NCBI RefSeq assembly: GCF_029962835.1
Contig: NC_080584.1
Location: forward strand, 82,426,862-82,490,861
Direction of reading: 5' to 3'
DNA: 64,000 bases
From: Magnolia sinica
Lineage: Eukaryota; Streptophyta; Magnoliopsida; Magnoliales; Magnoliaceae
How positions within the stretch are numbered: position 1 is the first letter of the stretch; each line of letters opens with the position of its first letter. A model generated the notes under the pieces. The model did no database searches. It was not told where the DNA came from and worked only from the letters and a program-made list of their open reading frames with translations. A program made the position numbers and the translations under genes. Shown one piece after another: positions 16,532 to 62,928 of the stretch.

Positions 16532-16537
16532 AGTTTT

Positions 16538-17138: not shown

Positions 17139-20100
17139 TTGATTAAGGGCTACGAGTGTTTCATGCCCAAGTGGGCCCGTGACAACACTCGACGTCTCTT
17201 GACTGAAGGAGGATTGGTTGAGGGGTTGACTATCCATCGCAGGACTAGACACCGCTCGAAATCCCCTGAGTTAACTGAAGTTATGGCTGAAGACCAACCT
17301 CCTCTACTTCCACCCAGGGTGGAGGATACCCAAGATGAGAATGAGGTGCATCAGGCACCCCCGCCTCGTACTTTACGAAATTATCTACAACCGGCGGGAG
17401 TGAGTACGCCCTCATGCATGATTTTCCCTGAAAACACAGGACAAATGGATATCAAGCCAGGAGTTATCCAACTCTTTCCCAAATTCCATGGACTTGAATC
17501 AGAAAGTCCATATTTACATTTGAAAGAGTTCGATGAGATTATAGCTACATTATATTTTTCTAATATATCTGAGGATACAATCAGGCTGAAACTCTTTCCT
17601 TTTTCCTTAAAAGAGAAAGCTAAGACGTGGTTACATTCACTGCATCCTAGATCCATTGGCACATGGAACGACATGCAGAGGGAATTCATAAAAAAATTCT
17701 TCCCACATCATAAAACGATTACCCTCAGAAAAGCAATCATGAACTTTGCCTAAAAGGAAGATGAAACATTCTTCCAATGTTGGGAAAGGTTCAAAGATTT
17801 GGTCAGTTCATGCCCACAACATGGATTTGAAACGTGGCGCATTACAATTTTTTTTTATGATGGACTGACATCTTCCATGCGCTAAATGGTCGAGACAATG
17901 TGTAATGGAGAATTCATTAATAAAAACGTTGACGAGGTATGGGATTACCTCGATAGTCTTGCTGAAAAAATACAATCATGGGACTATTATCCAAAGTCGA
18001 ACATCACATCTAAGCCGACTCAATTAAAGGAGAAATGTGGATTATATCTCTTGAAAGAAGAGGATGATCTCAAGTGTAAAGTGACTACGCTCATAAGGAA
18101 AGTTGAGGCCATGGAAGGAAAGAAGGATAAGGTCAATGAAATTATTTGCGGCATCTGTGATTGCAACATTCACACAACTGAAAACTGTCCTACAATACCT
18201 GCCTTTCGAGGAGTATTGAATGAACAAGCCAATGTCGTAAACAACTATCAAAGATCTTTTACTGGACCTAGCTCCAATACGTACAATCCTGGTTGGAAAA
18301 ATCATCCAAACTTTAGTTGGAGGAATGAACAAATGGCTACCCCTCAAGGTTTTTTCAATCAAAATCCAAATCAAGTGAAACCTCAAGAGGAACCGGTTCA
18401 AAATTCCATACAAGAGCTGGCTCAGGCAATGTGAGAAATTACAGATTTTATGCAAAAGATAGATTCTCGTATGATGGTTATAGAAAAGGGGATGCTTCCT
18501 GCACAACCTCTCCCCAATCCTAAACCACAGTACGAGATTAGTGATCCCAGCTCTTCAACTTAGATGGGGCACGCTAAATCCATCACCACTCTTAGGAGTG
18601 GAAAGATCATTGATAAAACTCTTCCGGTTAGGCCCGAAAAGCCTCAAGAACAAGAAGAGGACAACAATGATGGATCTAGTGATGCCCCACAAAAATTAGA
18701 ACCGAAACTTCTAGAGAAGCCAGTTGCTCCGTTCCCCCAACGGTTGGTTACACCAAAACGTCTTTCTAACTCTCAGGATATTCTGGAGGTGTTGAAATAA
18801 GTGAAAGTTAATATTCCTCTACTTGATGTCGTGAAACAGATTCCCTCATATGCCAAATTTTTGAAAGACTTATGCACGACCAAAAGACGGCAAAGTATTC
18901 AAAAGAAAATCTTCTTGACTGAGAAAGTGAGTGCCATCCTGAAGCAAGATGTGATGCAGAAATTCAAGGATCCCGGTAGCCCAACTATATCATGTGTAAT
19001 CGGGAACCATCGAATTGATCACGCACTTCTTGACTTAGGAGTGAGCGTAACTCTGATTCCCTACTCGGTATACAAACAGTTAGGTTTGGGTGAATTAAAA
19101 CCCACCTTGACCACACTACAACTTGCTGATCGCTCTGTTCGTGTACCAAGAGGGATAATTGAGGATGTGTTAGTCCATGTCGATAGATTTTATTACCCTG
19201 TAAATTTTATCATCCTGGACACCGAACCCATCAATAACATGAGCACTTAGATTCCCGTCATTCTTGGTCGCCCATTCCTTACCACGTCAAATGCAATTAT
19301 CAATTGCAGGAATGATGTCATGACTATGTCTTTTGAAAATTTGACATTGGAGTCAAACATCTTTTTCAATAACGGCAGCAACTTAGAGGATGATGACGAC
19401 TTCCACGACATTAACATGATTGACTCTTTCGTGGAAGATACGACACCTCTAACCTTATCTTCCGACCATCTAGAGACGTGCCTGGCCCACTCCTATGATT
19501 TTGATGATGACATGATTAGGGAGACGTGCGCATTGCTTGATACTGCACCGGTACTTGAAGTTAACCGGTGGAGGCCACAATTTGAAGAATTGCCACAAAT
19601 CGATGTAGTGCCTCTACCGTCTAACCTCAAGCCGCCAAAGCTTGACTTAAAACCTTTGCCCTCTGATTTGAAATATGCCTATTTAGGTCAAGATGAGACA
19701 TACCCGGTGGTGATCTCCGCCCACCTGGAGAAAGAATAGGAGAGTATGCTCATATCTACTCTCATTGAGCATAAAGGAGCCCTGGGATGGATGATAACGG
19801 ACCTCAAGGGAATCGATCCTTCGATTTGTACTCACCGCATATATCTTGAGGATAATGTAAAAATCGCTCGGCAACCACAACGTAGACTAAGTCCAAACAT
19901 GAAGGAAGTGGTTAAGGCCGAGGTTCTTAAACTATTTGACGTGGGTATTATATACCCTATATCTGATAGTCAATGGGTGAGTCCAACTCAAGTGGTCCCT
20001 AAGAAGTCCGGAATCACCATCGTAGCTAATGTTAATAATGAACTCGTGCCAACTAGAGTCACTACTGGTTGGAGAATGTGCATTGACTACAGGAAGTTGA

Positions 20101-22533
20101 ATACCGTCACGAGGAAAGACTACTTTCCTTTACCATTCATTGATCAGATCTTGGAAAGGTTAGCTGGTCATTCCTATTACAGTTTCCTTGACGGGTATTC
20201 GGGCTACAACCAGATAGAGATAGCCCCTGAAGACCAGGAGAAGACCACATTTACATGTCCCTACGGCACCTTTGCCGACCGAAGGATGCCATTCGGACTA
20301 TGTAATGCCCCTAACACCTTTCAGCGATGTATGCTTAGTATCTTTTCTGATATGGTGGGGCAATATCTAAAGGTCTTCATGGACGATTTCTCTGTTTACG
20401 GTCCATCTTTCAGCAAGTGCTTGGAAAGTCTTAAATGTGTGCTGAAAAGATGTGAAGAAAAGAACTTGGTACTTAATTGGGAGAAGTGTCATTTCATGGT
20501 TCAGAAGGGAATTGTCCTTGGGCATATCATCTCGTCCAAGGAAATCGAGGTAGATAAGGCAAAAATCGATCTTATCTCTAGCCTACCTCCACCTAAGAAC
20601 ATCAAAGATGTGCGATCCTTCTTAGGACACGCAGGATTTTACAGGTGATTCATAAAGGACTTTAGTCTCCTCTCTTGTCCTTTATGTAATCTTCTTCAAA
20701 AGGATGCTCCGTACGAGTGGACTGAGCAATGCCAGGAAGCTTTCACCAAACTTAAGGGCACGTTAAACACTGCACCTATCATGCAGCCACTCGACTGGAG
20801 CCTTCCTTTTTAGCTTATGTGCGACGCTTCTGATTATGCTCTTGGAGCGGTTTTAGGCCAGAGAAAGGATAAGAGACCCTACGTCATCCATTACGCGAGT
20901 AGGACTTTAAATCCGGCCCAAATGAACTACTAACTATGGAAAAAGAACTCTTAGCTGTAGTGTTCGCCTTGGACAAATTTAGGTCCTACCTGATCGGATC
21001 CAAGATCATTATCTATACAGATCATACGGCACTGAAGTATCTTCTTTCTAAGAATGATTCTAAGCCCCGCCTGATACGATGGATCCTTCTACTCTAAGAA
21101 TTCGATTTGAAAATTAAAGATAAAAAGGCAGTAGAAAACGTTGTGGCCGATCACCTTTCTCGCCTTAATACCTCTGATTCCCTTAAGACGACCCATATCA
21201 ACGACATGTTCCCTGATGAACAACTGTTCAGAGTCTCCCATTCACCTTGGTTCGCTGATATTGCTAATTATCTTGCTACAGGTGTCATACCGACATAGTG
21301 GACTGCACAAGATAAGAAGAAATTCTTCACCGAGGTGCGCAACTTTTTCTAGGATGATTCTTATTTATTTAAATATTGCCGACACCAAATCCTAAGGAGA
21401 TGTGTACCAGACGATGAGCATCAGAGCATCATCTCCTTCTGTCACTCACAGGCCTGTGGTGGTCACTTTTCTGCTAAAAAGACCACGGCCAAGATTCTGC
21501 AGTGTGGCTTTTACTGGCCCACTATGTTTAGGGACACTCATGAGTTTTGCAAAGCTTGTGAGCGTTGTCAGAAATTAGGAGCATTGTCCCGTCGAAATAT
21601 GATGTCTTTGAATCCCATCCTTATCATTGAAGCATTTGATTGCTGGGGCATCAATTTCATGGGACCATTCCCCCAATCATTTGGAAATCTGTATATTTCG
21701 CTCACTGTGGATTATGTTACTAAATGGGTCGATACGATTCCATGTCGAACTAATGACCATCGCACGGTCATTAAATTCCTAAAAGAAAACATCCTTTCTC
21801 GATTCAGAACGCCTCGAGCCATCATTAGTGATGGGGGCTCACACTTTTGTAATAAATCATTTGAGAGCTTAATGAAGAAATACGGTATCTCTCATAAGGT
21901 GAGCACCCCGTACCACCCATAGACAAGTGGGCAAGCTGAGATTTCTAATAGGGAAATTAAACACATCTTGGAGAAAATGGTTAACCCTGATCGTAAGGAT
22001 TGGTCAATCCGATTGACCGATGCCTTATGGGCATACCGTACTGCCTTTAAAACTCCTATTGGAATGTCTCCCTTTAGACTTGTCTATGGGAAAGCTTGTC
22101 ACTTGCCTGTGGAGCTGGAACATAAAGCGTACTAGGCGATCAAAAATCTTAATTTCAATCTGGACAATGTTGGCTCGCTACGCAAACTTCAATTGAATGA
22201 ATTTGAGAAAATTCGGAATGATGCGTACGATAATTCGAGAATTTACAAGGACAAGATGAAAGCATTTCATGACCAACACATTTTACGAAAATCATTCACA
22301 CCTGGTCAGAAGGTCCTTTTGTACAATTCTTGATTACATCTCTTTCCGGGTAAGCTTCGATCTCGTTGGACCAGCCCTTACATTGTTGTTACGTTTTTTC
22401 TCATGGGGCCGTTGAGATAAGAGATCCCGACAATGGCAAGGAGTTTAAAGTCAATGGACATCGATTGAAACCATTTGTTGAGAAATTTGATTCAGAGGAC
22501 ATGTCCATGCCTCTGACTGCTCCTGTTTACTAG
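17139..22533 (+). pseudogene. gag-pol region of the Athila-type element (fossil)
   Basis: Parts in order: the gag capsid-like region at about 17280-18430 (contains PGVIQLFPKFHGLESESPYL and LKLFPFSLKEKAKTWL); aspartic protease at about 18960-19250 (LLDLGVSVTLIPYSVYKQLG, a D-[LS]-G type active site); reverse transcriptase at about 19760-20640; RNase H at about 20690-21110; and integrase at about 21400-22500, with the zinc-binding HX…CxxC region near 21520-21580 and the catalytic core near 21640-21900. The reading frame is interrupted repeatedly, so no functional protein is expected. Orientation and domain order place it in Ty3/gypsy. Confidence 0.88.
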
Positions 22534-23911
22534 GATTGATCTCCTAGTCTGATGGAGGTATAGGTAGGTTTATTGTTTCATAGGACTAGGGTAGTTGCTT
22601 TATTTGTCTGGCTGAAAACGGTAAACTTAGCGCTCTTGGGAGGCAACCCAACTCTTCATTTTATTTCGTTTTTATCATTAGTTAGTTCAATGTTTGTGGG
22701 TAACATTGCTGCAAACCCTCACGAGACTACAACTCGTCCACTAGGGGCAACCTAGGGGTTTAAAGGCTTGTTGCATACGCTAAATGCAATCGAGAGTACC
22801 TACGAAAGTGGTGTAGGTAGGATTTCATTTTTATTATTTTTATTTTATTTTTGTTGGTTTCTCTCTTGTGTTGACCCGCTCTTACGTAGATATCTTTGGA
22901 AAGCCTCTTGATTCTTTCATCTAGGTACTATCTTTCCATCACTCCTCTTCTATTTTCGTTGTCCCATGTACATTGCATGTTTATTTCTTTTACATTGAGG
23001 ACAATGTAGATTTTCGGTTGGGGGTGGGAGATTAGGTTTCCTAATCAGTGTTTTCTTGGTCTTGAGCAAAAATTGTGAAATTTTTTAATTTTTCTGGACT
23101 TCCTTGTGAATTCGAAGTGATTTTGGTAGCCATCTAGGGCACTTGGAACTTCAAGATACGTGATGTTAGTAATTTAAGACGCTTGGATTCAATATCTGTT
23201 AGATTTCAGAGTTAACTTGAATTGTTAATCCAGAATTAGAAGTTGTAAACATTGATTGAGTTATGATCTCATATGTTATATCTCGCTTTCACGTTAAGGT
23301 TTCAGTCTGATATTGAAGAATTGACGTGGTACTCACTAAGCATGAAAAAAACCAGCCTGAGAAAATTGAAAGGATTGGGCGAATAATCTTCACCATAGGT
23401 TTGCTCCCTATAGGTGAAGGTTTAAGTTCCCAAAGTAACCAGTCGGAAAGGGGTAGGCAATGGTCTTCACCATAGGTTTGCTCCCTATAAGTGAGGATTC
23501 GATTCCCCTTCTTGGCGTTACTTTTAATCAAAAAAAAATATCAAAAATTAAAAGAATAAAAAGATAATGTGTAAGGCAAAGTTGGGTTATCGTGAATTCT
23601 CTTATTGGTTACCGATAATATCTTTAAATAGAGGTGAATCTTAATGTTGATAAGTCGAGATTAGACTATACATCCATGGAATTCAATGTTTAGAATTTTT
23701 CTAATTCCTGGAATAATACTTTGAACTTGATTATGAAGTTTACCGTGCGCCTGAGTCTAGGAGAAAGTAATACCCAACATTCATGAATCTGAGAATTCTC
23801 ATATCTGGCTTATTCTGCAAAAATCACTCGAATTTATAGAAATTGTTCTGTAATTCTCAACTTACTTTTCGCATATTTTGCTCGGACTAGCAAAATGCTG
23901 GTTGGGGGTTG
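22534..23911 (+). other. Non-coding 3' region of the Athila-type element
   Basis: Between integrase and the 3' LTR. No env-like domain is seen. It contains a doubled 30-base motif (TCTTCACCATAGGTTTGCTC… at 23388 and 23464) and ends in a G-rich tract, GGTTGGGGGTTG, just before the LTR, which is the likely polypurine tract. Confidence 0.6.
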
Positions 23912-26159
23912 TGTTGAGGGTCAAATATTGCATATCAGATCCAGTTGTTGCCTAGATTTATGAACATGGTACCGTTTAATAGCTCATTTTAATCATGTTT
24001 CTGTTGTAAGGTGGAATTGCGAGCTGAGACTGGATCGGGATGCTAAAAGCATGGAATTAACGTTCAGAATGCACCAAGGCAAGGGACGAACTCCAGGGGA
24101 CCAAGATCAACGAAATTTCACACTAGGGGTCCGTGAAAATTGAGAAACTGAAGCTCAAGCGGCCTGAAAGTCAGCCAAAATGCAAGATCACTAGGTTTCC
24201 ATAATCTGTTTGGCTCAAAAATTCATACATGGCTTGAGGGCCATAAATTAACCGTACACGTAAAATATCAGCCATTGGATGCCTCTGGAAGTGGCACAAC
24301 TGACAGATCAGTCACCAAAACAGTGATATGGGGCCCACCTGATCTCTGGATGTGCTTTAGTTTTGGACTCAACGTCTTAAATTAAAAGGGGAAGAAGATG
24401 GACAGAGAGGATTATATAGATACATCACGAGTGGACCCCATTGACATCGCTAGTGCACAGTGCATAAATGTACTCGAGGTGCACTGAATCGAGACGATCG
24501 GTCAGCGCCGTTGACCCGATCCATCTCGCACACGGAGAATAGCAGACGGACGCTGTCCGTCCGTTTTTGTGTAGTGGGCCTCACCAATCATCCAAATCAG
24601 TGATCTGGACCGTCCATCATATTCCCATGGTCCATATTACCAAGCCCTAGGTGACAAAATTCTAAGAAACAGTACGGATGGGTTCCTGGCAGTTCAAACG
24701 GAAGATGGACGGTGGACTGAACCCGCTTGTGGGCCACACCAAAATCAAACTGAAACTGTCCCTACCCGAACGGTTCTTCGTCCTGAATCTAATGGACGGC
24801 TTGGATTTCTCAAAACAACAGTGAAGTGGGCCCCACCATCGTCACAGCGTCAATGACGCTACTCTGTTTCGCGGTCTGGAAGAACCGGACGTTCCGAATC
24901 GTCCTAGCCCACTGGCGATGATCAGATGTCCGATCTTAACCGCCCATCATATAGAGGGGCTCGCTTTAGCCAAACCCATGTTGTCTTTATGCACTCATAC
25001 ATGCGCAGGTGCTGGTTTCAATGATCACAAACGGACTGTCTTACAACTGTTGCAGCTGATCTCTTCCATGGGTTACGCTGAATCTGATCCAAAACAAACC
25101 ATCTCCGGTCGAAATTTCGAGGAGAATTTGGTGAACGGAGTGGATCTTTTGTCTGAATTCAAGAATGGGCCCCACCGGAAAAACAGCGTAAGAATTCTAT
25201 TCCTGCTACGATTTGAACTGCGAAGAAAGGGCGGTTCCAACTCCAGCAGCGTGCGTGAGGAGCTTCCGCTCTCTCTGAGCGGACGTCCTTTTGGCCTATA
25301 AAAGAAAGAAAAAGAGAAAAGAGAGGGGGAGCCGTGGGAGGAAGATCATGCTCGGCTTGGACGATTGCAAGGGAGAGAGAGAGAGAAGATAGAGAGTTTG
25401 TTTTTCTTTTTCTGATTATTTTATTTTACTTTGTTTGATTTATTTTTAAGAGAATCAGCCATCCATGTCTGGCTGAACCCCTTAGCTAGGGCTAAGGGGT
25501 GAAGCTTGTAGCGTGATGGGAAGAATTTTATGCCTTTAATTCTCGTTTAAACTGAATGGATTTGGTATTGGGTTGATTGTCAGGGAATGTTTTCAGTTTT
25601 TTTAATGGTCTGTTGTGACTAAAATTACAATAGGTCTGCAATGGCTTTGAGCATGTTTTTCCATTATTTTTTTTTATGTTTATAACGTCAGGAAGTCCTG
25701 TTGTTCACCATAGTCTCATGAGCATGGTCGGATGACGGTATCCTTCCTAACCTTCACAGCATGTTGATTGGTTGGTAATTAGTTTAATTTTGTTGTTTAC
25801 TTTGTCCCCTGAGCAAGGTTTGGTGATGGAATCCATTCTAATTCATATACCTTTCATCTCGTGAAAACTAGATCAAATAAGTTCAGTTTGATTTCCATGA
25901 TTCTTGATGCAGGCATAAGATCTCCCTGATCTCTACAAGTGAATCCTCTGAACCCCTAGTTTCCTTCCTCTGAATTCCTTAAGTTCTACATTAATCTCTC
26001 ACAATTATTCATCAATTTATATTTAATTTAGATTTCATCATAGGCTAGTTCTATTTCTACCTAGTTCCAGATTACGTACAGGTTGTAGTCCCTTGGGATT
26101 CGACCTCGGTCTCACCGAGTTTATTACTACATCACAACCCTATACTTGGGGAGTGAACA
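23912..26159 (+). repeat. 3' LTR of the Athila-type element
   Basis: Same start, same end and same internal TATA box as the 5' LTR. It abuts the left edge of the solo LTR at 26163. Confidence 0.95.
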
Positions 26160-30775: not shown

Positions 30776-30954
30776 TGTGCATATTTCACCCATTTAACAT
30801 TCATCAAGACAATAATCAACACAATATCAACAAAACAATTAATTTACCAAAACAAATTACAAATATCTTCCTTTCGTAGCCTTCCACCCACAACATCTTT
30901 GAGAGAATAATATGAATTTACCTAAAAAAAAGAAAAAGAGTACAAGCAAGTGAC

Positions 30955-31284
30955 TTGTAGCATCTTGTTTATGAACCTTATAGCATTAGTAATCTCAGTT
31001 ACTGTTCTGATTTCTTCCAATGTAGCACCCACTTTACCATATGCGATATTCTCCATTATAGTAGTTGTAAGTAAGATGGGCTCTTGGCTAACAAGACCGA
31101 TTTTTTCTCTGATCCATCCAAGCTGTAGCTTCTTCAAGTTGATGCCATCTATGAGCACTTCACCAGCTTGGGGGTCATAGAACCTCTCCAACAGGATGAT
31201 CACTGTCGACTTCCCACTGCCACTCTCTCCAACTAGAGCCACGGTCATGTTGCTTGGAACATGCAACGAGAACCCAGAAAATAC
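30955..31284 (-). pseudogene. ABCB (P-glycoprotein-type) transporter fragment
   Basis: The minus-strand frame encodes about 110 residues of an ABC transporter nucleotide-binding domain of the plant ABCB/MDR type. It starts at [11 protein letters not shown] and contains the Walker A motif [26 protein letters not shown] and the Q-loop block [12 protein letters not shown], ending at NKMLQ. The LSGGQ signature and Walker B would lie in the next exon and are absent. The segment ends at a plausible exon edge (CAA then GTCACT), so the source was genomic DNA and not a processed transcript. Membrane domains are missing. It lies 200 bp inside the CACTA terminus and is probably a captured fragment. It is not a working transporter. 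Confidence 0.8.
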
Positions 31285-31470
31285 ATGAATGTAGGCACAC
31301 CTGCCGGGTCTCAGCATCCGATCCATCTCAAGCATGATGCTAGAGATGTTGCATTTGAGACACAACAGAGAAATTGTTAAAAAGGGTTGTATGCTATTGA
31401 ACATGCTCGGCCAAACCTCGCAATTTCCCAGTCCATCCAGTGGACTGCAATGTAGCTGTTGGATGGCTAG

Positions 31471-31815
31471 AGATTAGCTAGCCCCATATGCACCCTGTCC
31501 AAAAAGCACCTCCATATGCAACATTGTGCAAAATCAGGTGAGTGTGGGGCAAGATGGCCCCCACCATGAGAGTAACATAAGAACAAAACCTAGCTGCATG
31601 GTTTTAGAAGAAGGAAAAAACAAATGCTAAGCATTGACATCCAACATACCCGTGTCACCAGCTCGATGAGTGAACTATCCTGATTTTTGCATATGATGTT
31701 TCATTTCAATGTGTGGTCCACCCTATATGTCCCATGCATTATCTGGTTGGCACTTTCGCAGTGTGTAAAGGTGCTTGTGGAGAGAGCTACACATGGGGCT
31801 GGCAAGCTTCTGGAT
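31471..31815. mobile_element. Probable MITE with imperfect inverted ends
   Basis: AGCTAGCCCCATATGCAC near 31475 is mirrored by CTACACATGGGGCTGGCAAG near 31790, and AAAGCACC near 31503 by GGTGCTTG near 31770. The arms enclose about 250 bp. No target duplication is apparent and the family was not otherwise seen here. Confidence 0.5.
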
Positions 31816-45892: not shown

Positions 45893-48781
45893 TTAGATTG
45901 AGACCAGCTCTAGTTCCTCTGTTTCTTTGAAAAGAGGTTGGAAGAGGATCTTGGTGTTGTGATGGTCCCAATCCAATGAATCCCACCACTCTCTACTTCC
46001 TTCAATGTCTCCTCTCTGATCCGGTGGTAAGTTGTTGGCTGAGAAAGGGAGCTTCTCAAGTTGAGGACAATTTCTTATAACAATTGTGGTTAGACAGGTA
46101 CAAACCATAGCCTTCTTACAAATGCTCTTCAGCTCTGGTAAACCTATCAAACACATCGCTGTTAAGCATGGGAGTGTAATAGCATCATTGTTGTTGTCAT
46201 CTTCATCCATCTCTTCTTCTCTAGCTTCCAAACCTTCCATATGCCTGCAATACTGAACTTTAATTACTTCAAGATTCGACAATTTCTGCAGCAACCCAAG
46301 TGAGAATAAGCTCTTCAAATCATGACATCCTTCGATGTCCAAAGACCTAAGGCTTGCAAAGGTGCCATCTGGCACAAACCCTTTGCAGATGGTCCTTGAA
46401 CACGGCAACTCCCACAGAACTGACTTCTCCAACGTTGGCAAGGTGTTCTCTTTCATCATCAAAATGCAATCCATCCCGTAGCATTTGTAAATTTCACATT
46501 CTTTCAACTCTCTCAAATTCAGTAAGCCCTCTAATTCCGATAAATGAGTAATGCGTAGATTCCTTGGGTTATTTGGGAGGACTATGGAGGTCGCTTGACT
46601 AGTGAGATCACCATCGTGTATTTCAATAGAACAAACCAAGGGACGAGGGGAATTTTCAGGAGCCGGCCCCACAACAAGGGAGAAATGTTTCAGCTGTTGC
46701 CAATGCCGTGATGCGACGTAGCTACTGAAGCTTCGTAAGTCTGTAAAGTGGAGACTCAGATTTACCAACCTTCCTAGACTTGTAAGTTCCTTCAGGTCAG
46801 CTCCTATCGAATTTGATGTCAATCTCCATCCACTTCCGTACAGTTCCAGGTCTTCAAGAAGAGGAAGGTTGGATATGACCCCAGCTTGAAGCATTCGAAG
46901 TTTTAATGTCCACGACAGGTCAAGACGTCTGAGTTTAACCAATTGTTCCATCCCTTGCGGCAATTGTTCGATGAGAGTCGACGAGAGATCCAACACCCTT
47001 AGTGCCTTCAGCTTTTCCAATGAGGGCAAACTCCTTAATCTCCAACAAGAACCTAATAGCAGTGCATGGAGGCCTCCCAAATCAGAAACTGACGCTGGCA
47101 GCGACTCGATGTTAGTATGAGACAGGTTGAGAACTTTGAGGCTGCACATGTGCTCAAAGAACGACTGCGGAATGTTCTGTAAGACACAGTTGTTTTGCAA
47201 CAGCAATGTTGAGAGTTTTGAACAATTGGGCTGACCTGAGAGCATTTTGATGGAGTTTTGCATCAATGAGATCCTTTCTGCATCCTCTGCCCATTCCTGT
47301 TCTTGCGGTGATTCTTTTAATTCAACACCTGCTTTTATCATGAAACGAGGTCTACTTCTCGTGATATCAATGGCCAGATCCCTAACTAATTCATGCATCT
47401 TAACGTATTCGACGTTATATTCATCAACACCGCCTTCTAACATGCTAGCGTATTTCAGCTCACTCAATATCTTATGCCCCCTGTTGATCTCAACTTCTCT
47501 GTTGCCCATTTCGTCTATTAGGCCCTCCCAAATCCAGTAATCTATTAGCTCTTTAGTGGGGATGGCAAAACACTTTGGGTATAAAGCACAATACAAGAAA
47601 TAAGCTCGAATCTGGTCACTTCTTAGACGATCATAACTGATTTTTAGACGCTCAAAGACATCATCTTCCATGCATTTAATTTTGAGAGCCGAATGTTTCA
47701 ATTCATTCAATGTGTCACTCCACACCCTCACATCAGTTTGGTGCCTCAAAGCTCGTCCTACCATGACAATCGTGAGCGGCAAACGACCACATTCATCACT
47801 GACACACTTTGCAACATCTCGCATGCATGGAGAAATCACAGCTTCACCGCCAACTTTTTCCTCGAACAATTCCCATGCTTCATCTTCAGAAAGGAGATCG
47901 ACTTTAATATCTCTTTGGGATTCAATGTTTCGGCAAAGGCTGAGGTCACGTGTAGTGAATATGAGTTTACATCCATTTTCTCCACATGGCTCAGGAATTC
48001 CTATCATTTCTAAAGGAAATGATTTCCACATGTCATCTAAGATGAGCACAAACCTCTTCCTTCGCATCAAAGCTGCAAAGATTTTCTTTGACCGCCTGTC
48101 GTTGTCTTCATCTTTTGAAAACTCCAACTCAATTGCCTTTGCAATTTCGGCTTGTAACCTCTTCAAATTAAGGGCTTTGGAAGCCGTGACCCAAATAACA
48201 TGTTCAAAATATTGGGTTTCTGTGAGGCGATTGTTGATGTGCTTCATAATGGCTGTTTTTCCCACCCCCCCCATCCCATAGACTCCAATCTTGCGTATCT
48301 CGGCATTCATTAAGCAATCCCAGATCATTTCCAAAGTCTTTTTAGCTGTCGTTTCACCTACCAATGCAGCTGCAGGAAATGCCATTTGAGTATCTTGAAG
48401 AAGATCGAGCAATAGCCCATTGAAAAGTTTGTGTTTCTCTTGAAGCTTGATTACCTCTTCGATTGCCTTTGCTACAAGCATTCCCAAATTAGAACGCAAG
48501 AACCACCTCCTTTCTTGAAGTTCTTCTTCTATGCTGTGAACTTCCTTCGTAATCCTGTTCACATTTTTCAACCACAAGTTTACCTCTCTCTTTCTCTTCT
48601 TTCCCACCTGAATCTCCCCTCTACGCAATTCCGTCTTTACATCATTCTTTAGGCTCTTCAACTCTTCCATTTTTCTTTTCAAATTTTCTACATTTTCTTT
48701 GAGGCTCAGAGAATAAGTAACTTGTGCCCATGGAACCTTTCCAATTTCCTTTGCAATCTCCCAACAAATATCCATAGCCAC
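45893..48781 (-). CDS. CC-NB-LRR disease resistance protein (RPS2-type CNL)
   Basis: Single-exon gene for 962 residues, a cytosolic immune receptor that detects pathogen effectors or their effects and triggers cell death. A coiled-coil region (about 20-120) contains VNLWLKNV and lacks the EDVID motif, as in RPS2-like receptors. NB-ARC runs from about 140 to 465: P-loop GMGGVGKT (169-176), kinase-2 FVLILDDMW (244-252), RNBS-B CKLIFTTR (271-278), GRLPL (332-336), RNBS-D YFLYCALYP (394-402), and MHE (462-464) where most family members have MHD. About 16 leucine-rich repeats follow from about 520 to 925, with an acidic loop EEEMDEDDNNND, then SREWWDSLDWDH near the end. RPS2 is 909 residues, so this is full length. 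The start methionine precedes a typical CNL N terminus. No frame breaks are visible. The partner gene at 54818 carries related LRRs on the same strand. The Asp-to-Glu change in MHD is conservative, but may alter nucleotide control. Confidence 0.95.
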   Translation of the reverse strand: MAMDICWEIAKEIGKVPWAQVTYSLSLKENVENLKRKMEELKSLKNDVKTELRRGEIQVGKKRKREVNLWLKNVNRITKEVHSIEEELQERRWFLRSNLGMLVAKAIEEVIKLQEKHKLFNGLLLDLLQDTQMAFPAAALVGETTAKKTLEMIWDCLMNAEIRKIGVYGMGGVGKTAIMKHINNRLTETQYFEHVIWVTASKALNLKRLQAEIAKAIELEFSKDEDNDRRSKKIFAALMRRKRFVLILDDMWKSFPLEMIGIPEPCGENGCKLIFTTRDLSLCRNIESQRDIKVDLLSEDEAWELFEEKVGGEAVISPCMRDVAKCVSDECGRLPLTIVMVGRALRHQTDVRVWSDTLNELKHSALKIKCMEDDVFERLKISYDRLRSDQIRAYFLYCALYPKCFAIPTKELIDYWIWEGLIDEMGNREVEINRGHKILSELKYASMLEGGVDEYNVEYVKMHELVRDLAIDITRSRPRFMIKAGVELKESPQEQEWAEDAERISLMQNSIKMLSGQPNCSKLSTLLLQNNCVLQNIPQSFFEHMCSLKVLNLSHTNIESLPASVSDLGGLHALLLGSCWRLRSLPSLEKLKALRVLDLSSTLIEQLPQGMEQLVKLRRLDLSWTLKLRMLQAGVISNLPLLEDLELYGSGWRLTSNSIGADLKELTSLGRLVNLSLHFTDLRSFSSYVASRHWQQLKHFSLVVGPAPENSPRPLVCSIEIHDGDLTSQATSIVLPNNPRNLRITHLSELEGLLNLRELKECEIYKCYGMDCILMMKENTLPTLEKSVLWELPCSRTICKGFVPDGTFASLRSLDIEGCHDLKSLFSLGLLQKLSNLEVIKVQYCRHMEGLEAREEEMDEDDNNNDAITLPCLTAMCLIGLPELKSICKKAMVCTCLTTIVIRNCPQLEKLPFSANNLPPDQRGDIEGSREWWDSLDWDHHNTKILFQPLFKETEELELVSI

Positions 48782-54817: not shown

Positions 54818-56666
54818 TTACAGTTGTACTTTCCTTCTTTTGCTGTCTCCTCTTTCATCATCATCATGGAAACCACCACCATCATCATCCTCATCGTGAT
54901 CATCTTCTTCTGATTCAGATCCAAATTCAGATTCAGATTCAAGATCAGATTGCTCAATAAAAAAAGTTTGGAGAGGAGTCCTAATATTGAGATCATCCCA
55001 TTCCAATGCATCCCACCACTTCCTACTCCCTCTGATTTTTTCAAAAGAAGGGAGGACACCAATAAAGTGAGGAAGCTTCTTCAGTTTCGGACAGTTTTCT
55101 ACTACAATACTGACTAGAGAATTACACACCAGTACCCTCTTAGAAACGCTTCTTAATTCAGGTAAAAATCCCATCCGCAGTTCTTTTAACCTTGGGAGTG
55201 TGATGGTGTCCCTATCGGCCATCACTTCATCTTCTGCTATGATCTCCTCAACCTTATCACACATCCAAAGTCTAACATATTCAAGATTTTGGAGGTGTTG
55301 GAACAACCCAAAGGAAAATAAATTCTTGAGATTATGACAATGTTCGACCGTCATGGTTTTAAGACTTGGAAGGGTGCCAAACTGTGGGACACCTCTGTAG
55401 AGGGTCCTTAAATTGGGAAGGTTATAAAGTATCAACTCCTCCATAGTAGGCAATGTGTTCTTCTCCACCATCAAAATGCATTCCATCCCATCACAATCCA
55501 CCACGCTACATTCTTTCAAGTTCCTCAAATGCGTTATGCATTGCATCTCCGACAAGCAGCCGATACCGTGACAGTTCTTAATGATCAGCTCGAGAGTATT
55601 ATCAGGGAGCATTACGGAGTCCATTTCGTCAACAAGGTCACAGCCTAGGATTTGTACACTGTATTTCCGACTAAAAGAGGCCAGGGGTAGACAATTCAAC
55701 ACCCACCCTATATCAAAACGGAAGCTTTTCAGAGTTCGCCAATGACCGGATCTCATGTATCCAATGAAACTCGGCAAATCTACAAAGCTTATGGCAAGAT
55801 TAGCCAAGTGTGTCGCACTTACGATCTCTTTGATGTCCGCTCCTCCCAACACATCTGACAATGGCCAACTACATCTGCTCTGGAACATCAAGAGGTCTTC
55901 AAGTAGAGGGAGCTTGTGTAGCACCCCAACTGGATATATTTCCAAATTCCTTGTGTAAGAGAGATCAAGGTGTTTTAGGTTAACCAACTCATCTATCCCT
56001 AGTGGCAATTCTTTGATAATGGTATATGAGAGGTCCAACACTCTTAATTCTTTGAGCTTTGCTAGATAAGGGACAATCTTTAGTCTCTCACAGTGATGAA
56101 ATAATAGTTTCTGTACGTTCTTCAATTCAGAAATTGACTCTGGTAGGAACTCAATCTTTGTATGAGATAGATCAAGAACTGAAATCCTGTGTGCGCGCTC
56201 AAAGAGCACATGCGGTATATCATGTGATGGAGAGCTTTTTTTTGAGAATATCACAGAGGATTCAGGGACCAGAAAATCAACTATGGATGTGAATGCGTCC
56301 TCATTTACTTCATCCATGATCCCAATGCGCTCATCAAGCTCACAAGGAAAATCAATTGGGTTATTGGGATTCGAAGGGCCAAGCGATGCTAAAGGGAAGC
56401 AAGATAACGATAATTCCGTGCTTGGAATTTGCACGTCAGTAGATACTTTGGGTTCCATTGGGAAGTGCAGGAGTGTCTGCTGCTGCTGCTGCTGCTCCTG
56501 TTCTTTTACCAATGGCACTAGTGACATTAGACGGGTTGCTTGTTCACAAGTGTGCTTTCCTTGGTATGTGATATCAAGCATCGAGGGGTCGTCATGGGAC
56601 CTGATCAGGACTGTCTTCAAGGCAGTGCATCCTCCTTCGTACCGATCACTACTTCGGTAGTAGCTC
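54818..56666 (-). CDS. WRKY-LRR fusion protein, last exon
   Basis: Exon of 616 codons including stop. It starts at an acceptor (…ACATGCAG, then GAGCTACTAC) in the phase that completes the Arg codon of the WRKY 'PR' intron. The first 39 residues (SYYRSSDRYEGGC…GKHTC) are the second half of a group III WRKY domain, with HTC as the last zinc ligands; the first ligand Cys is Ser (YYRS instead of YYRC) and one extra residue lies between C and H. A linker with a Q-run (about residues 56-63) and serine/proline-rich, WRKY III-like C-terminal sequence ends near SSVIFSKKSSPSHD. From IPHVLFERAHRISVLDLSHT (about residue 150, genomic 56218) the frame continues into about 420 residues of LRR, colinear with the CNL at 45893-48781 and sharing its SRKWWDALEWDD end. 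An acidic tail and SKRRKVQL follow. There is no NB-ARC. The long unbroken frame argues for a real coding exon. Confidence 0.85.
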
Positions 56667-57994
56667 CTGCATGTGTAATAAGTATTAGAAAACCAATACA
56701 CAACGGATGATAGAAGAAAACGATCAGATCTAGGCTCAACTTGAATAGTCGATTTCTCAAGATAGATTTGCTGCCATTTTTTCTGGAAATTCCAATAAAT
56801 GCAAACAAAGGAAATCTGCAAATTGTCTTCAGGATACAATGAACTCTCAATACAATTTTCAACATGAAAATTTGCGCATTTAAGTGTAGAACAGATTTCT
56901 AGTTTTGACCCCGATATGCCTTAAGACGTTCAGAAAAAACTCAGTAAGAGATTAGATCGAGAGTAATTGCACAGAAGATGATATAATGTTAAGAATTAAG
57001 AGTCTATATTTCTGGATTATAGTATCCAGGATTTATATCAACTGAAAGGTTATGGATTTCTTCATGAAGAGGTGCTAAAGAGCCTCTTCAAGAAATCCAT
57101 ACCTATTCACAGCAAATAATTGTCTTTTCATGAAAGGACATGACTCTATGTCATATGACAGTTATTTCTGTACCCATTCAGACAAGAGCAGTTATCCAAC
57201 AGAAAAAACTGAATCCACATCAGTGACACATGGCATAGGTGCCACATGTACAATCATGTCACAATTATTCTTAATCAACAAAGGTTATAAAATCATTAGG
57301 ATAAACCCTCGTTCAATTCCAATTGTATCATAGCTAAAAAAGTTTGAACCATGTGCCAAAAAGATTATCTTTTTGCTCCTTGCGATAATGCGAAGTGCTA
57401 AGTGCGCCTAATAAAGCGCCCAAGAAGCCCTACAGCCTGCGCCACGTGTGCGCGCACCGTCCTTGAGGAGATTTGAACCTTGGTTGCATAAGCAAAAACC
57501 CCTTCTCTTACCAACGGTTATACACACTATTTATGAAAAGTTTAAATAATTAATATATTTATTTACTTTTAAAAAATAACTTTTATTTTTGAAATTTATT
57601 TTTATCTAAAAAATATAACAATAAGCTACAATCAGGAGGAGGAAGGTAAAAACTGGTATGTAACATTGTTGTTGTTTTTTTTTTTTTTTAGTTTTGATAT
57701 TTGTTCAATTCATCACAATGGACTACAAGCTATGCCTTGATTAATGGAAGTAACATATGGCCTGTTTGGCATCCACTAACATATAAGGGAAGATTCTTTT
57801 ATAAATACATCATCATCATCATAGCCTTGTCGTAGCATTACACGACCCCATATCTTGTCCTCCACATCGTATTTAAAGGATTTAGGGACATTTTTAAGCC
57901 ATCCCCATGAATATAGGATTGTTAGAAGTCTCCATGTACATGTGCACAAGCGTGTGTCTGTGGGATTAGCATTGTTCCGAGTTTTAGAAAATTG

Positions 57995-58089
57995 ATGTCA
58001 TGGGACGCTGATTTTTTTTTTTTTTTTGGGTTAGCTTGTTAGTACACACCCATGTCAGTACACACACTCCATGTCATGGGACGCTGATT
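57995..58089 (-). mobile_element. 57-bp truncated retroposon with 19-bp target duplication
   Basis: A perfect 19-bp direct repeat, ATGTCATGGGACGCTGATT (57995-58013 and 58071-58089), brackets a 57-bp insert. On the minus strand the insert reads GGAGTGTGTGTACTGACATG … GCTAACCC followed by a run of As. This is the form of a 5'-truncated LINE or SINE tail inserted by target-primed reverse transcription. Confidence 0.8.
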
Positions 58090-59479
58090 CAGGAGGCATA
58101 AATAATGAACATGATTAAGGAAAAACTTAAAATTCCACAATTCACACAGTTGGGAAATCATAGGCTTTTCATGGTTAAGCTTGAGAATGGTTCCACACTC
58201 AGAAAAAATAAAAAAAATAAAAAAAAAATCATTTTTTTAAGACTTTGGTCCTGGTGACTTTGGTCTTATGGCTATAGGATCGTTAGATCAAAGTCATGTT
58301 TGAGAGGAATGAGCAATCAAAGGTGGAAACCACATGGAGAAAGATCATCTTATCAAAGTAATTTTTTAGCGTGATGGATAATAATCAAACCTTTCTTGTT
58401 AATATAATTATAAATCATCCATTCCCTCCCAAAAAAAATCACTATGATATGCCCATTGCATTTACAAGCAGATACTTGTATTTCTGGCAATAACATAATT
58501 AGCTGCATGCTATAATTATTACTAGCTAACTAAATGGCCACTTTCAACACGAGAAAGCCATGGGTAACGTCCCATGTGAAAAGGAGACCAAAAAGTAAAT
58601 ATTAAGTAACTCCATTGGGCTAATAGTGACTTTTCAGGCATATTATAGAGTATTAACCAAAATTGCCGTGTTTTTGGTAAGTGTACCTCGTGTGGATCTA
58701 ACACAAGGAATTGAGTCCTAGGCCTAGGATACTGGTGAAGAGAAGTATGCAAACTTATTATTGGCACAATTGGACTGAAAGAAGCTTGATTAGAAGAAGA
58801 TGTAGTCTATTAGATCTAGGCTCAATCCTACCTAGGGTATGGTGTATAACTAGCCCCAGGTACATATGCATTGAATAAATTTATTTTAGACATGGAGAAA
58901 TTATCATTTGAAGTGTGTATTATAAATCGGCCATAACTTTTGATCTGAGTATTGTTACAGGACGCACGACATATGAACTTTTATTATAACAAGCCATCTA
59001 GGGTCAATCGACCCACTTTGTAATCACGTCTGTCCATTTCATGAGAAAACACAAGCTTATAATTTAAACACAAAATTTTAGAGAAAATTCATTTTTCGTA
59101 ATTCTAATTTTTTACCATATTTCTTTGTTTTTAGAGTTTTAGATTTTCATCTTTAAAAAAAAATGAAATTACTTGTAATCATGTTAGGACTCATCCAATA
59201 AAGACTTTTTTAGACCTTTTTTTTTTTTTGGCAAATTAGACTTTAGATGAGTTTTATTATTTTAGGTAAATTCCAATTAGTGTTAAAAATTTTCAATTAG
59301 ATTTTTATTTATTAATGGTGCAATGGAGAAATCATACACATTAGATATTATTCAATAAAATGTTCAGATTTTCTCTCTTATTATTTCTTGTGTATTCAAG
59401 CTTTTAATCAGTTGAGGAAGATGGTGATCGTCCTCTTCACTTTTTATGCTCATTCATAGATCAGTTGTTATCCAAGTGC

Positions 59480-59935
59480 GGTTTTTTCTCGATTTGATGG
59501 CATCTAATGATGGTGCGAGTAACAATCTCATAGACAGTGCTTCAGAGAATAATTCTTTGACAATGACGGCGTTTGAAGTTTTCAATGGGAGAATCTATAA
59601 GCCATGCAAGGATTGTAGACAATGATCGACCATTTGCTGAAGGTGTTAGGACAAATATATGTTTGTAATAATGAGAAATATGAGATCGACAATGAAAGCT
59701 TGCAGTTATTATGTTCGTGGTTTGACATTGGTGATGAATCGCAGGCTACAACTCAATAATGGTAAATCGCAATGCCACCACATTGATAATGAAAAAGTTG
59801 CGGTACATGCTAAAGGAAGAGATAGATCTACAATGGAACAACATCCTTCGAACGGGATACACTATGAACCAACGAGTTTGTGATATGATCATAGATAGAA
59901 GGAGTAATGAGAACCTTTTGCCACGACCCACTAGA
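59480..59935 (+). mobile_element. Ty3/gypsy gag-protease fragment (fossil)
   Basis: The frame around 59815-59925 includes LQWNNILRTGYTMNQRVCDM followed by IIDRRSNENL. It resembles the protease region of Ty3/gypsy elements (family form RHNIFRTRC…GKVCNVIIDGGSCEN). The upstream part may be gag but is not recognisable. It is a short, broken piece with no LTR nearby. Confidence 0.5.
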
Positions 59936-60035
59936 GTTTTATATCGAGCTGAAAGTTGAGCTTGTGAGGTTTCAAGGGGTGTCGTACATAAGTGCTCACG
60001 TAAGAAGGTGCGCAGGTGAGCATTCCTCTCTTTCT

Positions 60036-60040
<5 letters not shown>

Positions 60041-60070
<30 letters not shown>
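60041..60070. repeat. (TG)n microsatellite
   Basis: Fifteen TG units just left of the foldback MITE. Confidence 0.95.
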
Positions 60071-60071
<1 letters not shown>

Positions 60072-60092
60072 ATCAAGAGTAATGCTCACCTC

Positions 60093-60430
60093 GGAACCAG
60101 TTCTCATGAGAACTTGTAAGCACTTTCAGAGAACTTATCTCACATGATGTGTATACGAAATCCGAACGGTTCACTAGATGAGTCACCTCATGAAACTCTA
60201 CGGCCAAAACTTTTCCTGATCTAAAAATCTAATGGGCCATTGCAAAGTGAGAGGAAAATTCAAGGGAGGGATTTTCCTCTCACTTTGCTATGGGCCACCA
60301 GATTTCTAGATCAAGATAACTTTTGGACTTTAGGGGTTTCATGAGGTGATTCATTTAGTGGACCGTTAAGATTTTGTGCTCATGCCACAGATCAAAAAGT
60401 GCTCACGAGTTCTAGTGAGAACTAGTTCCT
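60093..60430. mobile_element. Foldback MITE, 338 bp
   Basis: Long inverted arms: GGAACCAGTTCTCATGAGAA at the left against GGAACTAGTTCTCACTAGAA (reverse complement) at the right. They continue through AAGTGCTC/GAGCACTT, CACCTCATGAAAC/GTTTCATGAGGTG and CAAAGTGAGAGGAAAAT/ATTTTCCTCTCACTTTG, so the whole element is almost one hairpin. It lies within the WRKY-LRR intron. No convincing target duplication was seen. Confidence 0.8.
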
Positions 60431-60749
60431 ATACTCTCAAGTCCAATCGTAACTGGTTGTCTAGTCTAACCAACATAGAAATACATAAGCAAATGCAGAG
60501 GGAGAGAACGAAAATGAGTCCTCAGCTGGGTGGAACTCTCCATGGTGTTTATATGCAGTCCACCCTGACCACCATGTGCACCACTCAATGTTAGGCTCAG
60601 GACCCAAAAATCAAACTCGTTTATAATTAAGGGAACCACACAATCAGAAAAAGTGTACAAGTCAAAGCTTATCCTCCAAACTATTTCCCTTAGTTTGGTG
60701 CACCTAAATCACTAATCAGCATGTTTTTTTTTTTGGATGGGGGGAGGGC

Positions 60750-60960
60750 TCCAACACTGTGTTTTAAGTGTGGCATCTAATGGATGGAGTGGATTTAATC
60801 TAATAATCATGGAGGCCCTTATAAAAATCAAGGGTGGACACTCTCTCCCAACCATTTCTATTGTTGTCGCCCACTTGAATCACGAGTTAGCCTGATTTTT
60901 GTTTCTAGGCATAAAATGAGATGACACATCTAATGGTCGGTATATATCTCACATAAAAAT
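60750..60960. repeat. Half MITE, GTGGGCCCCACC-type
   Basis: Blocks GTGTGGCATCTAATGGATGG, CTTGAATCACGAGTTAGCCT and GGCATAAAATGAGATGACAC follow one half of the foldback family. Confidence 0.5.
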
Positions 60961-61324
60961 CAAGAAAGAGTGTTTATAAGATTGTTCGGAAAAAAAATGA
61001 GAAGGTTTAAGGTCCAACTAGTTGGAATAGAGGTCAACGTCCAAGTAGAAATAACTTTCAACTTTCATGTATATGCAACATCCAACTCATGTGATAAGTT
61101 GACCCATCATGATCATTACCTTTTAAAAAACTAGGATGATCATTACCTTTTGTAAAACTAAGCAACATCCAACGACTATTGTGTTTCACTACCAATGTCT
61201 AGATGTTGTTTTATATGATGTGTAGATAGAACTGAACAATGCACTAGGCGAACCTCATGCAGGGCCAACCTTCAAAAAGGTTGGATGCATGTCACATGCA
61301 TTTAATATTTTGAAGGTTATTGCA

Positions 61325-61535
61325 TCGGTGAACTTAAAGCTGCCGAGTTGAATTTGACCCAAGTTTGGTTTGGCCTTGTTTATGTGACGCCTCCTATTCG
61401 AGCTTTACATGAGTTAAGCTTCGAGCCTATCTCTACTGTTGAGCTTGATTTGGTCCAGATTATATAAGCTTGAGTTTGGTTTGGTTTGATCGAAATATCT
61501 AAGCCAAGTTGAGCCGAACCGAACCAAGCTAGGTT
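61325..61535. repeat. hAT-like repeat remnant
   Basis: GAGCTTGATTTGGTCC, GAGTTTGGTTTGGTTTG and AAGTTGAGCCGAACCGAACC resemble the subterminal words of the GAGCTTGG-rich hAT-type elements (compare 12816-13968). No termini are clear. Confidence 0.45.
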
Positions 61536-61539
61536 CAAA

Positions 61540-62030
61540 TGAGGGTCAGGAAATAGTGATCATTAAATGACTACCATTACAATTTTCCTAGGGTCTACCA
61601 TAATGTTTATTCACCATCCAAACCGCTGATAGTGTCACATGAGTATTGATAAAGGTGATTGACCATGCGATACTTTTGTGTGGGTCACAAAAGTTTTTGA
61701 TCAAGTTGATATTGACACTATCATGTGGTATGGCCCACCTGATATTTGGACCTACTTTATTTTTTGGCATATGAGCTGGAAAAATGGATGGGAAGCATGG
61801 ATATGCATCACATACATTGAGGTGGGCCCACCACAGGAAAATAGTATTGATCCGAAACTTCTGTCTCCTAACAAGTTTGGATCCAGTCTCGTGATCTACC
61901 GGAGATTCGGATCTTCCTTATTTTTTTTTATCTCATACCATAAAATGAGCTGAAAATTTTGATGGATGGCCGGATAAAACACATATATATCATGGTGGAG
62001 CCCACGGAGCTTTGACACCAACTACGTGGT
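61540..62030. mobile_element. MITE copies, GTGGGCCCCACC-type
   Basis: Family blocks: CATAATGTTTATTCACCATC, TTTTTGATCAAGTTGATATTG, GTATGGCCCACCTGATATTTG, AATGGATGGGAAGCATGG, GAGGTGGGCCCACC, then a second right half (TTTTGATGGATGGCCGG, ATCATGGTGGAGCCCACGGA). It looks like one copy plus part of another. Confidence 0.6.
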
Positions 62031-62104
62031 GGGTGTTGAGGTCACCAACTAATTCAAATCCCGCCTTAGTGTACCGAGTAAAATTTGTGGGCCTGCCGTC
62101 TTGT

Positions 62105-62335
62105 ATATGTATTATCCACGCCATTCATTTGTTTTTACATATCATTTTAGGACATGATCTAAAATTGAATCATAAGCTCAAGTGGACCAACCCACAAGAA
62201 AACAATGTGCATTTATGTATACGTGTATTGTCCACACCATCCATCCGTTTTTATATATCATTTTAGGACATGATCCCAAAATTGAATCATATCCAAAGCT
62301 CAAGTGGATCATACCACATGAAACAGTGTGGGTAC
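62105..62335. repeat. Tandem duplication of a MITE half
   Basis: Two consecutive copies of about 112 bp: GTATTATCCACGCCATTC … TCATTTTAGGACATGATCTA … AAGCTCAAGTGGACCA, then GTATTGTCCACACCATCC … TCATTTTAGGACATGATCCC … AAGCTCAAGTGGATCA. Both are the left half of the GTGGGCCCCACC-type family. Confidence 0.75.
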
Positions 62336-62507
62336 AATCTATAAGCATAAACAGTTTTGGAATCCTTTACTAAAAATTGAGACATCTTGGCTTGGTACAA
62401 AAGAAAAGAAACAATATCCAATTTTATAAGAAGCAAAGCTTTGTGATTTTCAGTTCTCAAGCATGTAATTTTAGAATGTGTAATAATTTCAATAGTCTAT
62501 GGATAAA

Positions 62508-62780
62508 GGGCACTTTTGGATGCACTTCTGAATTTAATTGCAAATATTAGTTTATAAAGTGGAAACAACCAAATCATAATTTCTTCACAATCTGCATGCA
62601 CCAAGGGATAGGGCTTCAACTCACATTTACGTTACTTTCAAGTTGGAGTTGAAACATCCATAGACATAATTTGAGAGCCTCTTCCTCATTATGGGTGCTA
62701 AGAAACATCAATAATTTGTGATATTTCATCTAAGTAAGCTGAATGTTCACAAATAAACTCACTTGTGCATCCAAACACAG
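62508..62780. mobile_element. MITE adjoining the WRKY exon
   Basis: Left end GGGCACTTTTGGATGCACTT; the right end, reverse-complemented, reads GTGTTTGGATGCACAAGTG. The pair TTTGGATGCAC/GTGCATCCAAA with similar continuation marks inverted termini about 273 bp apart. Its right end is about 25 bp from the splice donor of the WRKY exon. Confidence 0.6.
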
Positions 62781-62805
62781 ACTATATATCCAAGGAATTT
62801 CTCAC

Positions 62806-62928
62806 CTTGGAAATCTACTTCCAGTGATCTCTTTCTGCCCATGTTTTCTCCAGATATAGCCATCATCTGGTGGGTCTGTCTCTGAGCAAACAACACGCAT
62901 TTGTTTTGTCTCCATTGATGGCTTCCGT
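62806..62928 (-). CDS. WRKY-LRR fusion protein, internal exon with WRKY motif
   Basis: A 123-bp exon between an acceptor (TCTTTGTTGTAG, then ACGGAAG) and a donor (CCAAG, then GTGAG). It encodes (R)RKPSMETKQMRVVC, then DPPDDGYIWRKHGQKEITGS, then RFP and AG of the split Arg codon. DDGYxWRKYGQKxI…PR is the first half of a WRKY domain; the order KRRK…VRVCS…DDGY and the intron at the PR position indicate group III. The heptapeptide is WRKHGQK, a variant. The phase (1 + 120 + 2 bases) joins exactly to the exon at 56666. Exon 1 (N-terminal part of the protein) is not found up to the right edge and probably lies outside the window. WRKY group III proteins are nuclear regulators of defence and salicylate responses. 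Confidence 0.88.

Follow-up and report, generated by a model that had tools for sequence, protein, structure and literature searches.

A WRKY-LRR chimera without NB-ARC in a mixed WRKY/CNL gene cluster of Magnolia sinica

Introduction

What does a gene encode that begins as a WRKY transcription factor and ends as the leucine-rich repeats (LRRs) of an immune receptor? We addressed this question for a locus on the minus strand of a 64,000-nucleotide stretch of the Magnolia sinica genome (C12:82426862-82490861, hereafter the window; positions are window coordinates unless prefixed with C12). An earlier note, made from the letters of this stretch, had proposed that a group III WRKY domain is fused here in frame, across an intron at the conserved PR position, to LRRs of the nucleotide-binding leucine-rich repeat receptor (NLR) type, without an NB-ARC domain. 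As far as its sequence can show, the locus is a genuine chimeric gene: its LRR-coding end is that of a CNL-type gene, and what precedes it is the 3' part of a WRKY gene of group III. Our preferred reading, to which we give a probability of about one half, is that the gene is coding and that its product is an NB-ARC-less accessory of the NLR system, with the LRR as the selected part.

Results

Gene structure

Two minus-strand exons, 62928-62806 (123 bp) and 56666-54818, join in phase across an intron of 6139 bp and run for 656 codons to a TAA without an intervening stop. The splice falls in the codons CCA AG^G AGC (P-R^S; the caret marks the splice point), with the donor AAG^GTGAGA and the acceptor TTCTAATACTTATTACACATGCAG^GA. 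A public Magnolia sinica gene model, P0001 (759 amino acids, named 'disease resistance protein At4g27190-like'), is 100% identical across all 656 residues, and the proposed in-frame fusion was thus confirmed by the phase of the join, the open codons and the model alike. P0001 also supplies exon 1 (C12:82493087-82492779), which lies 2 kb outside the window and has a GT donor; joined, exons 1-3 form 758 codons with zero stops and intact splice sites. Since the N-terminus of P0001 matches the WRKY53-like protein P0121 from its first Met, the protein starts as a WRKY and not as an NLR. In Pfam, full-length P0001 matched WRKY (PF03106, E 5.5e-20, residues 124-185) and LRR_RPS2 (E 2.1e-22), and NB-ARC was not among the families matching at E up to 0.01. 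No NB-ARC was found hidden in the intron either: residues 1-500 of the NB-ARC-containing CNL P0003, searched across the window at E up to 5, matched nothing but the separate CNL at 48763-47291, so that both searches bear out the claimed lack of this domain in the fusion.

WRKY domain

The PR-position intron and exon layout of the WRKY half are those of group III (P0121 has the same layout), as is the HxC ending, and to this extent the WRKY assignment in the earlier note stood, whereas its hallmarks are not intact. Taking as hallmarks the positions conserved in six or more of seven reference domains, with rows aligned by hand, we found WRKHGQK instead of WRKYGQK (His for Tyr), a zinc finger that departs from CX7CX23HXC because its first Cys is Ser and its spacing is one longer, one residue added after KTV, and an altered Q following it. 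In P0121 two other hallmark positions are broken, and WRKYGQK and the two cysteines are intact. The fusion WRKY shows no constraint relative to P0121, a possibly decaying relative: over the WRKY coding parts (176 codons, exons 1-3) dS was 0.263 and the ratio of nonsynonymous to synonymous substitution rates (dN/dS) was 1.09 (0.72-1.81). A protein search for the WRKY parent returned P0121 alone and left residues 187-260 without an assigned parent, and no second WRKY zinc half was found elsewhere in the window. In slh1, a single leucine insertion in the WRKY of RRS1 strongly reduces DNA binding (literature comparisons here and below draw on parts of PMC4350883, PMC8724549, PMC8685902, PMC12787737, PMC4207616, PMC12315475 and PMC4759884). 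Given this precedent and the broken hallmarks (Tyr, zinc Cys and extra residue), W-box DNA binding by the fusion WRKY is probably to be regarded as unlikely. P0121 itself lies in a group III WRKY array at C12:82365555-82373539 (L009, L010), where it is followed by a second copy, apparently represented by the end of exon 1 and by exon 2.

A second LRR copy and the age of the joint

A second LRR copy lies 74 kb away at the locus of P0002, where a frame of 542 residues (C12:82407721-82406093, minus strand) with 73% protein identity to the fusion carries a similar acidic/basic tail and no NB-ARC. The C-terminus of the P0002 model departs from the genomic frame, and its annotated start is the Met equivalent to the ATG at 56317. 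When the sequence upstream of this copy (C12:82411292-82407647) was compared with P0121 intron 2 (C12:82368339-82372431), nine same-strand rows were obtained, corresponding to eight distinct ordered segments (one row lies inside another), together with one weak opposite-strand row. The last colinear segment reaches as far as the first base of exon 3, the two acceptors resemble each other (TTACA[A/C]ATGCAG^G), and, among the loci compared, the 495 bp adjoining the acceptor (L010 3937-4431) have matches only at the P0121 locus itself and at the LRR copy. Intron 2 of the fusion also matches P0121 in order, at 62967-62354 (which includes exon 2; intron part 62805-62354), 58732-58260, 58240-58093, 57948-57855 and 57828-57720, followed by exon 3. 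When the fusion intron was compared directly with the upstream region of the LRR copy, the best two segments (58382-58260 and 58192-58093) proved to consist in part of dispersed repeats.

The zinc half is missing from the second copy, whose acceptor leads straight, and in the same frame, into the end of the linker (R LDNLV MDKETEE). WRKY exons 1 and 2 gave only chance-level matches (E >= 1.2) in the stretches compared (L013-L017), and a genome-wide DNA search with the exon 2 region (40 of 239 candidates scored) covered the exon only at its own place and at two places in the P0121 array, in addition to a 69-bp piece on C3. Linker homology at the protein level was weak (p 0.019, upstream part alone), and the DNA comparison was used instead. 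Because the sequence upstream of the LRR copy is colinear with P0121 intron 2 up to the exon-3 acceptor, the arrangement in which WRKY intron 2 opens into LRR-coding sequence most likely existed before the copies diverged. It is strongly indicated by the same alignments that the joined unit was later duplicated and that the second copy lost the WRKY coding parts while its LRR and tail stayed open. This second copy, with WRKY-intron sequence upstream, agrees with the proposed direct joining of an N-terminal group III WRKY to CNL-type LRRs. A stretch in the same cluster region (L032 6463-6781, C12 ~82.298 Mb) matches part of the P0121 intron 2 segment at 81% and may be a repeat or a further WRKY-related copy.

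Selection between the two copies

Between the fusion and the second copy, dN/dS, which averages both, was 0.525 (0.40-0.70) over 506 codons, 0.489 (bootstrap 0.33-0.72) over the 390 codons of LRR residues 291-680 and 0.18 (0.04-0.55) over the 35 codons of the C end; the linker gave 1.15, with too few codons (28) to tell. The frame was kept in six of six coding indels (3, 6, 6, 9, 3 and 24 bases), and none of eight indels in the 3' flank (17, 1, 1, 1, 1, 7, 4 and 2 bases) was a multiple of three. Against 21 outgroup rows (residues 291-680), the copies differed at 22 of 163 CNL-conserved columns versus 68 of 223 variable columns (Fisher p 8.8e-5); of the conserved columns, 119 are retained by both copies, 7 are altered in the fusion alone, 6 in the second copy alone and 31 in both. 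This count was redone for residues 291-680 because the annotated end of P0002 is divergent; an earlier one over all residues from 285 had 183 columns, of which both copies retained 121, whereas 8 had changed in the fusion alone, 17 in P0002 alone and 37 in both. Neutral simulation (300 runs) at the protein difference of 106/418 led to an expected 6.4 stops over both copies, with a minimum of 1, and the chance of no stop in the whole frame on one branch was 0.0018 for an assumed 160 substitutions. A BLOSUM constraint test gave a modest result (observed -0.19; neutral -0.50, standard deviation 0.15, highest of 300 simulations -0.09). These comparisons speak for an LRR that is coding in both copies and constrained.

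LRR domain and its relatives

The LRR half corresponds to the LRR domain found in CNLs of the At4g27190/RPS2 type, the cut lying close to the NB-ARC/LRR boundary, and its relation to them extends through their C-terminal end, where a CNL-like WWD stretch is followed by the acidic tail and then by the basic end, whose stretch SKRRKVQL is presumably NLS-like (a nuclear localization signal). In a tree of 20 rows the fusion LRR grouped with P0002 at 100/100 on nearly equal branches of 0.14 and 0.15, with the backbone not supported. By identity, the closest other genome frames are two of 985 codons on C1 (52%), P0003 reaches 51% and the adjacent CNL 44%, and the origin of the LRR half from the tail of the adjacent CNL, as the earlier note had it, is therefore not favoured. 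On tree paths from the adjacent CNL the fusion is the nearest row (1.31, versus 1.32 for P0003), so an older link between the two may exist. Structure prediction of the joined protein, which had been suggested as a check, gave a model that was poor overall and too weak to strengthen the case, the mean predicted local distance difference test score (pLDDT) being 54.2 with a five-sequence alignment; scores were 36-48 in the WRKY blocks, mostly 35-63 in residues 291-430 and 63-93 in residues 481-670. Foldseek ranked the wheat G10 resistosome first and NRG1C fourth, matches that indicate no more than 'LRR'.

Neighbourhood

The features of the gene and its surroundings are collected in Table 1. In the tandem CNL we take the motifs to be P-loop, kinase-2 and GLPL, with MHE in the usual place of MHD. 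A further CNL of the same family lies 41 kb from exon 1 of the fusion (L021 4784-7642, C12:82534184-82537042, plus strand) and is 55% identical to P0003. The insert before the fusion acceptor has what we take to be a head like that of a tRNA-derived short interspersed nuclear element (tRNA-SINE). Within the 6-kb intron there is also an imperfect foldback of 337 bp (60093-60429, 73% self-complementary) resembling a miniature inverted-repeat transposable element. Elsewhere in the window, a long terminal repeat (LTR) retrotransposon at 14286-26159 (plus strand) is bounded by 2.25-kb direct repeats (14286-16531 and 23911-26159, 96.8% identical) and contains gag, reverse transcriptase and integrase frames and a weak protease match. 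An open frame at 30925-31473 (minus strand) combines an ABC transporter match (E 5.9e-16) with a weak, below-cut-off match to Methyltransf_29 and is possibly another chimera of gene fragments.

Table 1 Positions of the parts of the WRKY-LRR gene and of neighbouring features in the window.
Feature	Position	Strand	Basis
Exon 2: end of WRKY N-region and first half of WRKY domain (DDGYIWRKHGQKEITGSRFPR)	62806..62928	-	Translation, splice sites, 100% identity to P0001 residues 103-144
Intron 2, PR position	56667..62805	-	Parts match P0121 intron 2 in order
First part of exon 3, coding for the second half of the WRKY domain with Ser for the first zinc Cys, one additional residue and the HTC end	56546..56666	-	Translation, alignment
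Linker: polyglutamine run and junction; candidate WRKY-tail origin	56228..56545	-	Longest DNA homology to LRR copy begins at 56319
CNL-type LRR domain, P0001 residues 291-715	54953..56227	-	Pfam LRR_RPS2; dN/dS versus LRR copy
Acidic tail, basic end SKRRKVQL, TAA stop	54818..54952	-	Acidic/basic tail also present in LRR copy
Insert directly before fusion acceptor, ~0.9 kb, absent at P0121 and LRR copy	56700..57620	-	Intron comparisons; boundaries approximate
CNL gene in tandem, 6 kb downstream of fusion, open frame	45893..48775	-	P-loop, kinase-2, GLPL; not the closest LRR

Discussion

With an R-protein domain and a WRKY in one gene frame, the locus belongs with the R protein-WRKY chimeras RW1-RW8 of Rinerson et al.; we class it neither as a working WRKY factor nor as an NLR with an integrated domain (NLR-ID), a group entered, in Sarris et al., through the NB-ARC that the fusion lacks. 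Its nearest counterparts are RW8 and RW7. RW8 (Theobroma cacao, WRKY(III)-NB-ARC-LRR) likewise has an N-terminal group III WRKY followed by LRRs but carries between them the NB-ARC that was not found in the fusion, and RW7 (cotton, LRR-WRKY(III)) likewise unites LRRs and group III WRKY with no NB-ARC listed but has the LRR first, several WRKYs and a calmodulin-binding domain. Three Asteraceae models (P0050, P0053 and P0122, from Helianthus, Atractylodes and Tagetes) also combine LRRs from near the NB-ARC/LRR boundary with group III-like WRKYs, with no NB-ARC match in the model; they differ in their reverse LRR-WRKY order, in having two or three WRKY matches and in keeping at least one intact WRKYGQK each, and the models are possibly incomplete. 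The exact WRKY-LRR order was not found among the matches listed from an open-access library, so the layout would be new in its order and not quite new in kind, given RW8, RW7 and the Asteraceae models. In the parts of the sources used here, a survey from 2025 covering 305 genomes tallies the domains present in NLR proteins, and one of magnoliid NLRs mentions WRKY a single time, to exemplify a fused domain.

As the sequence shows, a group III WRKY gene in a mixed WRKY/CNL cluster contributed its 3' part to the joint and a CNL-type gene its LRR end, cut near the NB-ARC/LRR boundary. The colinear intron sequence strongly indicates that the joined unit was duplicated afterwards and that one copy lost its WRKY coding parts while LRR and tail stayed open. 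As NB-ARC was not found, the product would have no nucleotide switch and would not be a full receptor; if active, it would act through binding. It is most likely an accessory of related CNLs, with an LRR that would bind an effector, a guarded protein or an NLR partner. It could serve as bait, with the WRKY part or the LRR catching an effector and a CNL responding, or as a competitor, with the LRR occupying the partner of a CNL, as NRG1C does against its full-length relatives (NRG1C outcompetes NRG1A for EDS1-SAG101, according to part of a commentary). Like the fusion, NRG1C and similar truncated NLRs are LRR proteins without a working NLR N-terminus; NRG1C differs in that it has no WRKY and keeps part of the NB domain, and antagonism was tested for NRG1C and is an analogy only for the fusion. 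The WRKY part, probably off W-box DNA, may serve as bait, nuclear anchor or passenger. An accessory or competitor centred on the LRR has a slight edge over a WRKY-surface bait. Two points weaken the latter: the Tyr that contacts AvrRps4 in RRS1 is His in the fusion, and the second copy lacks a WRKY.

The best-surviving alternative, unlikely as we consider it, is that the locus is a relic in decay: a fusion once or never functional, with a drifting WRKY and an LRR frame that survives because death was recent, hence a shuffled pseudogene. Consistent with this are the WRKY dN/dS near 1, the broken zinc and WRKY motifs, the LRR copy without a WRKY exon in the stretches compared, the presence in the cluster of other gene fragments such as the chimeric-looking frame at 30925-31473, the insertion before the fusion acceptor, and the state of P0121, where genomic exon 3 has a stop soon after HTC (HTCIQ) and a second, truncated WRKY is also present. 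They are set against an LRR dN/dS below 1, a frame kept in every coding indel and in none of the flank, the avoidance of changes at conserved columns, and 758 stop-free codons with intact splice sites.

It is rather improbable that the LRR alone is the working gene, transcribed separately or with the WRKY exons as leader and promoter, and yielding an LRR-only protein from the ATG at 56317 or nearby. In-frame ATGs do exist at 56458 and 56317, the P0002 model begins at the Met equivalent to the latter, the second copy has no WRKY exon in the stretches compared, and constraint was seen in the LRR half; both parts are nevertheless united in the public model and by the PR splice, and the WRKY frame is open through exons 1-3, with gaps relative to P0121 that are whole residues at the protein level.

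An integrated WRKY decoy like that of RRS1, in which effectors directed against group III WRKYs would bind the WRKY part and the LRR would relay to a CNL partner, seems equally doubtful. RRS1 (TIR-NB-ARC-LRR-WRKY) and other NLR-WRKY decoys share with the fusion a WRKY (here group III) and an NLR-type LRR in one protein, a CNL stands in tandem 6 kb downstream, and mutated DNA-binding motifs are known among NLR-ID WRKYs. RRS1 and its kin are, however, full NLRs with a C-terminal WRKY, WRKYGQK and a zinc-stabilised fold, and Sarris et al. describe functional zinc motifs in all WRKY regions that they aligned, a motif that the fusion WRKY has not kept. Moreover, the Tyr of WRKYGQK that contacts AvrRps4 in RRS1 is His in the fusion, no NB-ARC is present, and the LRR copy does without WRKY. 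That assembly or annotation united two neighbouring genes, as the 6-kb intron and a join resting on a gene model of unspecified RNA support might suggest, is highly improbable, given that WRKY zinc half and LRR share one uninterrupted exon and that the joint is common to both copies, the LRR copy being preceded by sequence of the WRKY intron and by a similar acceptor.

Several points nonetheless weigh against a coding accessory with a selected LRR. The single-transcript status of the gene rests on the public model P0001, and a ~0.9-kb insertion sits before its acceptor. Averaged over both copies, the dN/dS values are compatible with recent death of the fusion, and either half could have escaped stops on one branch by luck, with a probability of 0.065 for the WRKY part and 0.057 for the LRR (for an assumed 62 and 78 substitutions). 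With its stop and truncated second WRKY, P0121 is possibly decaying, and part of the WRKY dN/dS excess may therefore be its own. The largest colinear segment upstream of the LRR copy (556 bp, E 1.4e-95) also matches L032 and L013 and is thus partly repeat, and the specificity of the 495-bp segment describes a comparison among selected loci rather than copy number across the genome. Finally, the existence of an LRR copy without WRKY argues that the WRKY is not essential.

More speculatively, and we think improbably, WRKY-LRR proteins without NB-ARC might form an overlooked, NLR-free class of immune accessories, in which the LRR is selected as bait presenter or CNL antagonist and the WRKY, freed from DNA binding, diversifies; such a class would be invisible to NB-ARC-based surveys and would have arisen at least twice, in Magnolia and, provided that the Asteraceae models are complete, in that family with the order reversed. 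The survey of NLR fusions by Sarris et al., in the part used here, starts from NB-ARC proteins, so the WRKY-LRR type could not appear in it, and immune chimeras that dropped NB-ARC go uncounted there. A natural test is provided by the sister copies, of which one has the WRKY half and the other lacks it, whereas the LRR shows constraint in both. The locus thus allows us to ask whether an LRR can serve immunity without the NLR switch, and what role a fused WRKY has once its DNA binding is probably gone.

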